Shown piece by piece: positions 54,857-57,847 of a DNA stretch of 64,000 nt (its first letter is position 1; every line of letters starts with the position of its first letter). The DNA comes from Gammaproteobacteria bacterium (lineage in GTDB: Bacteria; Pseudomonadota; Gammaproteobacteria; Burkholderiales; Gallionellaceae). The stretch covers positions 45,046-109,045 of the forward strand of contig JAHJNJ010000035.1 of assembly GCA_018820925.1 (NCBI GenBank). Reading direction: 5' to 3'. The notes beneath the pieces are model-generated. The model made no database searches, was not told where the DNA came from, and saw nothing but the letters and a program-made list of their open reading frames with translations. The translations under genes were made by a program, and so were the position numbers.

Positions 54857-55990
54857 ATGAAGTACGCACTATTACTCTTTTTCACCCTGTTCCCGGCGTT
54901 CGCATATTCCCAGGAGCAAGCCTCCGATTCTCCCGTCCTTGCCGCCAATTCTTACGCTTTATACGACTACACCAGCGAACAATTTCTGGTGGAACAAAAC
55001 GCCGATGCGCATGTTCCGCCGGCACACCTGACCAAACTGATGACGGCTTATGTCGTGTTCGGCGCAATCAAACAGGGCAAGATGACGCTCACCCAGCGCA
55101 TTATTCCTTCGGCTTATGCCACGCGCATGCAAACGGCAGAGTCGCGCATGTTCCTGAACGCGGGCAAGGAAGTGTCGGTAGAAGAGCTGTTGCGCGGTTT
55201 GATCGTGCAATCCGCCAACGATGCGGCGCGCGTATTGGCGGAAACGCTGGCCAATCACGAGATGGCACTGGCCGACACGATGAACGTCGAGGCGCAGCGA
55301 CTGGGTTTGAAAAACACGCATTTCATCAACGCCACCGGCACCCCGGACGCGCAGCACTACAGCAGCGCGCATGACATGGCTCTGATCTCCGCCGCGCTGA
55401 TACGCGATTTCCCGCAGTTTTACTACATCTACGCGCAGCGTGAATATCAATACAACGGCATCAACCAGTTCAACCACAACCGTCTGCTATGGCTGGATCC
55501 TTACGTGGACGGCCTGGCGACAGGCGTTAACGAATCCGAAGAATTTTATCTGGCCGCTTCCGCCAAACGCGAAGAACACCGGTTGATCTCGGTGGTGATT
55601 GGTACCGCAACCGAGAAACTGGGCAGCAGCGAAAGTCAGCGCCTGTTGAACTACGGCTTTCAGAACTTCGAAACCATCAGGCTGTACCGCAAAGGACAGG
55701 CTGTGAGCAACAAACGCATCTGGAAAGGCACGTCCAAACAGTTGAGTCTCGGTTTCCTCGCCGACCGCTATATCACCCTCCCCAAGGGCCAGCGCGACGC
55801 ACTCAAGGCCACGCTGGAAACGCGGCAACCGATGCTGGCTCCGGTCAATCGCGGCCAGCAACTCGGCACATTGCACCTCAGCCTGAACGACAAACCCTTT
55901 CTCGACCTTCCCGTTGGCGCGCTGGAAGATATACCTTTGGCCAACGTGTTCTCGCGCGGAGTGGATAACATCCGGTTGCTGTTCCAGTAA
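54857..55990 (+). CDS. DacA/PBP5-like D,D-carboxypeptidase homologue without catalytic residues
   Basis: Start set at the ATG at 54857 (MKYALLLFF, signal peptide to YSQEQ). The 377 residues align with PBP5 throughout: SRMFLNAGKEVSVEELLRGL, ATGTPDAQHYSSAHD, NHNRLLW, and the C-terminal beta domain (PLANVFSRGVDNIRLLFQ). The nucleophile Ser of SxxK is His57 (AHLTK; codon CAC), and the KTG Lys is Ala221 (VDGLATGVN). SxN is kept as SAN. Both losses predict no peptidase activity, though penicillin-fold binding may remain. It occupies the dacA position in the dacA-dat-ybeD-lipB block, where an active PBP5 would be expected. Confidence 0.85.
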   Translation: MKYALLLFFTLFPAFAYSQEQASDSPVLAANSYALYDYTSEQFLVEQNADAHVPPAHLTKLMTAYVVFGAIKQGKMTLTQRIIPSAYATRMQTAESRMFLNAGKEVSVEELLRGLIVQSANDAARVLAETLANHEMALADTMNVEAQRLGLKNTHFINATGTPDAQHYSSAHDMALISAALIRDFPQFYYIYAQREYQYNGINQFNHNRLLWLDPYVDGLATGVNESEEFYLAASAKREEHRLISVVIGTATEKLGSSESQRLLNYGFQNFETIRLYRKGQAVSNKRIWKGTSKQLSLGFLADRYITLPKGQRDALKATLETRQPMLAPVNRGQQLGTLHLSLNDKPFLDLPVGALEDIPLANVFSRGVDNIRLLFQ

Positions 55991-56001: not shown

Positions 56002-56856
56002 ATGAGTATCTATTTGAATGGCGCCTTCATGCCGATTGAAGAAGCCAGGGTTCCGGTACTGGATCGCGGCTTCATTTTCGGCGACGGTGTGTACGAAGTC
56101 ATCCCCGTGTATTCGCGCCGCCCCTTCCGCCTGGCGGAACACCTGAAGCGCCTGCAACACAGCCTGGACGGTATCAAACTGCCGAACCCGCACAGCGAAG
56201 CCGAGTGGACGGACATCCTCAACGAGCTCATCCAGCGCAACGAACCCGAAGACCAATACCTCTACCTGCACATCACGCGCGGCGTCGCCAGACGCGACCA
56301 CGCTTTCCCCAATCCGCCCGTGCCGCCCACCGTATTTGCGCTGAGCAACCCGCTCACCACGCCTTCCGCCGAACAACTGCAACACGGCATCGACTGCATC
56401 ACGGTCGTGGACAATCGCTGGCTGCGTTGCGACATCAAGTCCATTGCGTTGTTGCCGAATGTGCTGCTGCGCCAGGCTGCCGTCGATGCGGGTTGCGCCG
56501 AAGCCATCCTCATCCGCGACGACGCTTTCCTCACCGAAGGTGCGGCCAGCAACATTTTCGTGGTCAAGAACGACAAGCTGCTCGCCCCGCCCAAGGACAA
56601 CTTCATGCTGCCCGGCATCACCTACGATGTGATTCTCGAACTCGCCGCAGCCAACGGCATTCCGTATGAAGTCAGACGTGTCACAAAGGCGGAAGTGCTC
56701 AGTGCGGACGAACTGCTGCTTACCTCCAGCACCAGGGAAGTGCTCGCCATCACCACGCTCGACGGCAAACCGGTAGGTGACGGAAAACCCGGCACCATGT
56801 TCACCAGACTGTATCCTCTGTACCAGACATTCAAACGCGAAGTGATGCGCAAATGA
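56002..56856 (+). CDS. dat: D-amino-acid (D-alanine) transaminase
   Basis: A 284-residue fold-type IV PLP enzyme: LDRGFIFGDGVYEVIPVY at the N-terminus, the PLP Lys146 in CDIKSIALLPNVL, and the cofactor-binding turn EGAASNIFVV. These features fit D-alanine transaminases, which interconvert D-alanine and D-glutamate for peptidoglycan; branched-chain aminotransferases share the fold but usually have another start motif. A strong ribosome site (AAAGGAG) lies before the ATG. It follows the DacA-like gene by 11 bases and overlaps ybeD by four. Confidence 0.88.
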   Translation: MSIYLNGAFMPIEEARVPVLDRGFIFGDGVYEVIPVYSRRPFRLAEHLKRLQHSLDGIKLPNPHSEAEWTDILNELIQRNEPEDQYLYLHITRGVARRDHAFPNPPVPPTVFALSNPLTTPSAEQLQHGIDCITVVDNRWLRCDIKSIALLPNVLLRQAAVDAGCAEAILIRDDAFLTEGAASNIFVVKNDKLLAPPKDNFMLPGITYDVILELAAANGIPYEVRRVTKAEVLSADELLLTSSTREVLAITTLDGKPVGDGKPGTMFTRLYPLYQTFKREVMRK

Positions 56857-57122
56857 TTGAACCGAAAGATTCCCTCATCGACTATCCCTGCGAGTTTCCC
56901 CTGAAGATATTCGGGGAAACCAGGCCGGACTTCGCACAAACCATCGCCACCGTCGTGCAAGTGCATGCGCCGGATTTTGATGCTGCCAGCATCGAAATGC
57001 GCAGCAGCAGCAACGCCAGATACATCAGTCTCACCTGCACCATCCGCGCCACCTCGCGCGAACAGCTCGACAATCTGTACCGCGACCTGACTTCGCACCC
57101 GATGGTTAAAATGGTGCTGTAA
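56853..57122 (+). CDS. ybeD: YbeD/DUF493-family protein
   Basis: An 89-residue cytosolic protein of the YbeD family: LIDYPCEFPLKIFGETRPDF, then SSSNARYISLTCTI and LDNLYRDLTSHPMVKMVL. The fold is ferredoxin-like, similar to ACT domains, and its exact role is unknown. The gene commonly sits between dacA/dat and lipB, and does so here; its ATG overlaps the stop of dat (ATGA). Confidence 0.92.
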   Translation: MIEPKDSLIDYPCEFPLKIFGETRPDFAQTIATVVQVHAPDFDAASIEMRSSSNARYISLTCTIRATSREQLDNLYRDLTSHPMVKMVL

Positions 57123-57199: not shown

Positions 57200-57847
57200 A
57201 TGCAACACCCGCCGATACACATCAAAGCGCTGGGCATGGTCGACTACGAGCCGACCTGGCGGAATATGCAACGCTTCACCGCCGAACGTACCGCTGACAC
57301 CGTGGACGAAATCTGGCTGGTACAGCACCCGCCCACCTACACCCAGGGCCAGGCAGGAAAGCCTGAACACCTGTTGCACCCGACCAATATCCCGGTCGTA
57401 AAAATCGACCGTGGCGGTCAGATCACCTACCACGGTCCCGGCCAGATCGTCGCCTACCTGATGCTCGACCTGCACCGCTGGAAAATCAACGTGCGCGAAC
57501 TGGTGCGCCTGATGGAACAGGCCGTCATCGACCTGCTCGCGGAATACGGCGTGAAAGCGGCAGGCCGCGAAGATGCGCCCGGCGTGTATGTCGGCGACGC
57601 CAAGATCGCCGCGCTCGGCCTCAAGATCAAGAAAGGCTGCAGCTACCACGGACTGTCGTTCAACGTGGACATGGACCTGACACCGTTCGAGAACATCAAC
57701 CCCTGCGGCTACGAAGGACTGAAAGTCACCCAATGCCTCGCGCAAGGCGTCATCGTGCCGCTCGAAGAACTGCAAGCCGAACTCACGCAAAATCTGGTGC
57801 ACGGCTTGCAACGGCATCTGGACAAGAAGCGCTTATCCGAACAGTGA
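57200..57847 (+). CDS. lipB: octanoyl transferase LipB
   Basis: A 215-residue enzyme that moves octanoyl from acyl carrier protein to lipoate-dependent enzymes. The catalytic pair Cys169 (NPCGYEGL) and Lys135 (GDAKIAALG) stands at the same numbers as in the E. coli enzyme, and [12 protein letters not shown] is present. GAGGAG precedes the ATG. It belongs to the dacA-dat-ybeD-lipB block. The usual next gene, lipA, is not here but at 24145, on the far side of the accessory modules. Confidence 0.95.

Follow-up and report, generated by a model that had tools for sequence, protein, structure and literature searches.

Does a full-length PBP5 homologue in which catalytic residues have been replaced represent an enzyme in decay, an enzyme of another kind or a protein retained for something other than catalysis? 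PBP5 is the standard example of a D,D-carboxypeptidase; its effect on cell shape is still debated. The question is raised by a 377-codon open reading frame, free of stop codons and frameshifts, in the 64 000-nucleotide stretch of DNA analysed here (the window). Its product is composed of a putative signal peptide (recognized by eye), a degenerate S11 domain, a PBP5_C domain and a C-terminal helix, putatively an amphipathic membrane anchor. The features of the locus are as follows:

54857..55990, + strand: dacA/PBP5 gene for a putative pseudoenzyme of 377 aa (open reading frame, Pfam, PDB relatives, AF2 model, Foldseek)
55025..55027, + strand: codon 57, CAC, His replacing the nucleophilic Ser of SxxK (codon reading, alignment)
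55034..55036, + strand: codon 60, Lys of SxxK, kept (as in 27 of 28 clade members)
55211..55219, + strand: codons 119-121, SxN motif, here SAN, kept (sequence, clade alignment)
55517..55525, + strand: codons 221-223, KTG motif reading ATG, i.e. Ala-Thr-Gly, with Ala221 encoded by GCG (codon reading)
55667..55933, + strand: PBP5_C beta domain, residues 271-359 (Pfam PF07943)
55937..55987, + strand: C-terminal helix, residues 361-377 (conservation; helix 364-375 in the AF2 model)
56002..56856, + strand: D-amino-acid aminotransferase-like gene directly downstream of dacA, which from family knowledge we take to be dat (neighbour comparison)
56853..57122, + strand: ybeD/DUF493-like gene, operon neighbour (neighbour comparison)
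57200..57847, + strand: lipB, operon neighbour (neighbour comparison)

Both domains of PBP5/DacA proteins were found by Pfam (Peptidase_S11, PF00768, E 2.5e-62; PBP5_C, PF07943, E 2.4e-19). Among solved structures, PBP5/DacA chains come nearest, with P. aeruginosa PBP5 (4k91) as the best relative; Foldseek matched the model to 4k91, 6ntz and 3it9. The AF2 model (mean pLDDT 84.7) superposes on PBP5/PBP6 of P. aeruginosa and E. coli, with a TM-score of 0.84-0.92 to 4k91_B. Among the catalytic motifs, SxN is present (SAN, 119-121), SxxK has no catalytic Ser (PPA-HLTK-LMT) and KTG, whose Lys is rarely His or Arg in this family, begins with Ala (VDGL-ATG). In ancestry and fold the protein belongs with PBP5; by the motif test it is not a D,D-carboxypeptidase. 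An earlier, sequence-only reading had reported HLTK with His57 (CAC), ATG with Ala221 and a clean frame, and codon reading agrees with it on each point. Its statement that both catalytic motifs are destroyed is correct for Ser57 and for the Lys of KTG, which are gone, but goes too far for the active site as a whole, since SxN and Lys60 are intact in the window protein and in 27 of the 28 clade members. A sequencing error was ruled out, because reversion to Ser or to Lys would require at least two base changes each and because these multi-base codon changes are common to close relatives.

Orthologues were read from the genus, the family and the order of the window genome; the named relatives are MAGs labelled Sideroxydans, Sideroxyarcus, Gallionella and Nitrotoga. 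Every one of the 28 distinct DacA sequences read for the genus-level clade is without the Lys of KTG, and 13 of them lack Ser as well. Eleven sequences, that of the window included, combine Ala221 with His or Gln at position 57; 14 have Ser57 with QTA or QTS, one (L014) has Ser57 with STS and two (L032 and L082) have Ala57. Position 57 is consequently H or Q in the window subclade and S or A elsewhere in the clade; at position 221 A, Q and S occur, and the triplets found at the KTG position include ATG, AAG, AAA, AAS, QTA and STS. Hence His57 and Ala221, which the sequence-only reading proposed to follow in related genomes, are not fixed genus-wide, but the loss of Lys extends to every member read; nor are the changes private to this genome, as they are carried by sister species. 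One clade sequence (L037, apparently the same protein as L074) was read from a bin assigned to a different genus (G165; contamination 5%), where this degenerate dacA and an intact one (L101) lie on different contigs; the presence of both indicates that the bin is probably mixed.

A maximum-likelihood tree of 88 rows was built with the motif columns left out (short search without bootstrap). The 28 sequences without Lys form one clade (SH-aLRT 99), and in its sister group 7 of 8 DacA are intact, the exception being L019 (GTG). According to the tree the KTG Lys was apparently lost once (K to Q/A/S), at the root of this clade, and Ser apparently twice thereafter: once in the His/Gln subclade (11 sequences; support 86), to which L014, with Ser retained, is sister, and separately, to Ala, in L032/L082. 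This order is not universal, since L088 (genome G068) has lost Ser (ALTK) with SGN and KTG intact, i.e. the reverse of what is seen in the window clade.

Outside the clade the motifs are mostly intact across the family. Of a further 39 DacA sampled from the order, with a bias towards higher-scoring matches, 38 have intact motifs. Within the family Lys is lost elsewhere in L057 and L059 (ALTK with EIG or EVG), in both L058 and L019 (GTG), and in L087 (NTG) and L094 (MSS). Degenerate DacA has also arisen independently elsewhere in the order, in no fewer than three further families and in full-length proteins with both S11 and PBP5_C: L137 (f18; GLSG/GAH/no KTG), L138 (f19; PLTK/GAN/ILG) and L208 (f20; DFVQ/NAE/MS), the first two of which still adjoin ybeD and lipB. 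A different change is seen in L098, L100, L118 and L121, where SxN has become SGS or SAS and SxxK and KTG are intact. About 21 of 250 order genomes (G188, G189, G179, G292 and others) gave no match to DacA at E 1e-35; their DacA may have diverged strongly or disappeared.

Selection was estimated by pairwise NG86 counting, regional values being regional dN over gene-wide dS. Median omega is 0.13 in the His/Gln subclade (with L014) and 0.16 in the Gln subclade, and three intact groups gave 0.09-0.15; purifying selection on the clade DacA is therefore comparable with that on active homologues. Faster evolution is limited to the KTG strand (216-240), with a dN/dS of 0.16-0.19 in the degenerate clades versus 0.05-0.10 in intact ones (2-4 fold), while values for the SxN helix, SxxK helix and C-terminal domain differ little between the two; the SxN helix (0.05-0.06) is the most constrained segment tested. 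Active DacA has 99 conserved sites; the clade retains 74 of them and has changed the other 25, among them Ser57, 221-223 and Gly229. The cleft residues Lys60, Ser119, Asn121 and Asp122 are retained. Across the clade the best conserved segment is the C-terminal helix (361-377; mean 0.93, and 0.99 in the His/Gln subclade), and the lowest conservation in the mature protein is that of residues 221-240. The dacA-dat-ybeD-lipB operon is kept in the degenerate lineage, dat adjoining intact and degenerate dacA alike. The claims of the sequence-only reading that the rest of the fold and the operon position are conserved (AF2 model, 74/99 sites, dat-ybeD-lipB), and that the protein is a maintained pseudoenzyme (clade-wide Lys loss, changes in sister species, purifying selection like that on active enzymes), are thus supported. 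The functions it put forward, binding of peptidoglycan or control of an active carboxypeptidase, are candidate roles, and for the second of them the genome does offer possible targets (short S11 and PBP4).

An S11 search of the window genome (3.44 Mb) for the second dacA that the same reading had proposed to look for gave no second full-length DacA, the only matches being the window DacA, a short S11 protein and a PBP7-like protein. The short S11 protein (267 aa, without PBP5_C) has SLTK, SAN and KTG, all intact; the PBP7-like protein has SITK, SEN and KTG; PBP4 (S13) has intact SxxK, SxN and KTG. These three are the candidate trimmers PENTAPEPTIDES of DacA in this genome. It also contains two matches to YkuD L,D-transpeptidases, enzymes which would use tetrapeptide donors. 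Among the 34 genus genomes PBP4 is present in 29 and short S11 in 25, one of the latter copies being disrupted (L184, G033:C48, broken by a TGA/frame change; the DacA of the same genome is degenerate too, with QTA). In the related genus g36, which has an intact DacA, short S11 is seldom found. It is absent from the closed genomes G004 and G023 despite their degenerate DacA, as well as from G014 and G019, and Nitrotoga genomes carry it beside an intact DacA. No strict pairing of degenerate DacA with short S11 or PBP4 was found among the 34 genomes, and strict compensation by short S11 was ruled out by its absence from G004 and G023 and by its co-occurrence with intact DacA in Nitrotoga. Short S11 is therefore a plausible substitute, though one that some closed genomes do without. 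A VanY-type carboxypeptidase was rejected as a general substitute; it occurs in 2 of the 34 genus genomes and not in the window genome. In G019 (99% complete) neither PBP4 nor short S11 was detected, and the S11/S13 proteins left are a QTA-type DacA and PBP7.

What, then, would this protein do? The missing catalytic residues could by themselves suggest recent pseudogene decay, or an error, in the window genome; given the full length of the gene, an omega (dN/dS) of 0.13, clade-wide fixation and shared multi-base codon changes, recent decay was ruled out and we regard an explanation of this kind as having a negligible chance of being right. Retention of an enzymatic activity, either through Lys60, SxN and the residual Ser of the Gln subclade or through a different chemistry supported by His57, is improbable. 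Lys60 and SxN are indeed conserved, Ser is kept in 14 of 16 Gln-subclade members and G019 would otherwise depend on PBP7 alone; Ser-bearing sequences with Gln or Ser in place of the KTG Lys could be weakly active or penicillin-binding. However, replacement of the KTG Lys by Ala in PBP7 ended penicillin binding and hydrolytic toxicity (PMC11586513), and no replacement catalytic residue is conserved, as His and Gln alternate at position 57 in the window subclade and 221-223 vary freely. The same alternation rules out that position 57 has acquired a catalytic role of its own.

Two further explanations assume a protein without catalysis. In the first it would be tied to a single active enzyme, either short S11 or PBP4, as its allosteric regulator or partner, much like a pseudoenzyme subunit. 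Short S11 is frequent in the genus (25/34, one disrupted) and rare in g36 with its intact DacA, and PBP4 is frequent too (29/34), but no partner is universal: G004, G023, G014 and G019 have no short S11, G019 has no PBP4 either, and Nitrotoga combines short S11 with intact DacA. We hold this to be rather unlikely. The other explanation, doubtful but of somewhat greater weight, is that the dead PBP5 binds stem peptides uncleaved and so shields pentapeptide donors from carboxypeptidases, for use in transpeptidation. Retention of the cleft residues Lys60, Ser119, Asn121 and Asp122 and the strong constraint on the SxN helix (0.05-0.06) would suit such a guard, as would the observation that E. coli PBP6a seemed inactive and may even protect pentapeptides (PMC4916385). 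Against it, the strand that clamps the D-Ala carboxylate (Lys-Thr-Gly) is exactly the variable part and 221-240 is the least conserved segment, so that D-Ala-D-Ala binding has probably been lost.

The most likely reading of the window DacA is that of a maintained pseudoenzyme. We give a somewhat better than even chance to the fuller proposal that it is an envelope-anchored, non-catalytic adaptor or scaffold, with trimming left to PBP4 and short S11. After export, the C-terminal helix would keep the protein anchored on the periplasmic side. With no Ser, formation of an acyl-enzyme would be impossible, and the protein is therefore predicted neither to trim pentapeptides nor to bind beta-lactams covalently; it would instead serve as a non-catalytic adaptor or scaffold within the wall-synthesis machinery, and D,D-trimming would pass to PBP4 and, where present, to short S11. 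Early loss of Lys may have been favoured because it switched trimming off while the structural role stayed, after which loss of Ser could have been neutral. We infer the adaptor mechanism, in preference to a substrate-binding guard, from the drift of the carboxylate-clamping strand next to the steadiness of the rest of the protein, the C-terminal domain and the helix. The presence in G019 of only QTA-type DacA and PBP7 as trimming candidates counts against this explanation, as does the chance of weak activity or penicillin binding in the Ser-bearing sequences with Gln or Ser for the KTG Lys. Results in E. coli point both ways. The PBP7 variants K231A (Lys of KTG) and S67A lose activity and Bocillin binding and keep midcell localization, which persists via the C-terminal helix (PMC11586513), and catalytically dead PBP5 S44G is not inert, as it worsens cell-shape defects (PMC4916385). 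Yet the shape function of E. coli PBP5 requires its activity (PMC4916385) and its septal/midcell localization requires an intact active site (PMC2909392), so that a purely structural role is without direct precedent in PBP5.

How does the protein compare with known systems? It shares with PBP5/DacA (MEROPS S11; E. coli PBP5, P. aeruginosa 4k91, H. influenzae 3a3j) the fold of both domains (44% identity to 4k91_B), PBP5_C, the C-terminal helix, SxN and the dacA-dat-ybeD-lipB locus. It differs by the changes found in the window subclade (Ser to His/Gln, KTG Lys to Ala and G229 of the KTG loop to Glu/Asp) and by the predicted absence of carboxypeptidase activity and of covalent penicillin binding. 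Pseudoenzymes are known among peptidoglycan hydrolases of other folds, for example the degenerate LytM domains of EnvC and NlpD, dead peptidoglycan hydrolases kept as wall regulators. The LytM fold, however, is metallopeptidase-like and the partner amidases are established, so the likeness is one of concept only. E. coli PBP6a (DacC) has the same architecture and, as in vivo data suggest, little carboxypeptidase activity and a possible part in pentapeptide protection, but keeps its catalytic Ser, S66 (S66A inactivates it; PMC4916385), and is acylated by ampicillin (3ita). The E. coli PBP7 variants S67A, S124A and K231A remove the same S11 residues, with activity and Bocillin binding lost and localization kept (PMC11586513); those changes are engineered and not natural, and PBP7 has no PBP5_C domain. 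A literature search of partial journal coverage returned no published natural, selectively maintained PBP5 pseudoenzyme, and no relevant paper on natural PBP pseudoenzymes or on penicillin-binding proteins of Gallionellaceae.

In its broader form, our proposal is that selection can act on a function of PBP5 apart from catalysis and that several betaproteobacterial lineages have independently turned their sole full-length DacA into a non-enzymatic envelope protein, the window clade by losing Lys before Ser; we see this as evenly balanced between right and wrong. The degenerate form is open to experiment, since such a DacA (L007; QLTK/SAN/ATG) occurs in G028, which is very probably the cultured Sideroxydans lithotrophicus ES-1. 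A full-length PBP5 under strong selection throughout a genus related to iron oxidisers, without the catalytic Lys and in part without Ser, would amount to a natural separation of catalytic from non-catalytic roles and, if the reading is true, would supply natural separation-of-function proteins for the old question of what PBP5 does besides trimming. An annotated DacA need not mean that a genome encodes a working PBP5, a caution that bears on inferences about peptidoglycan structure and beta-lactam targets.
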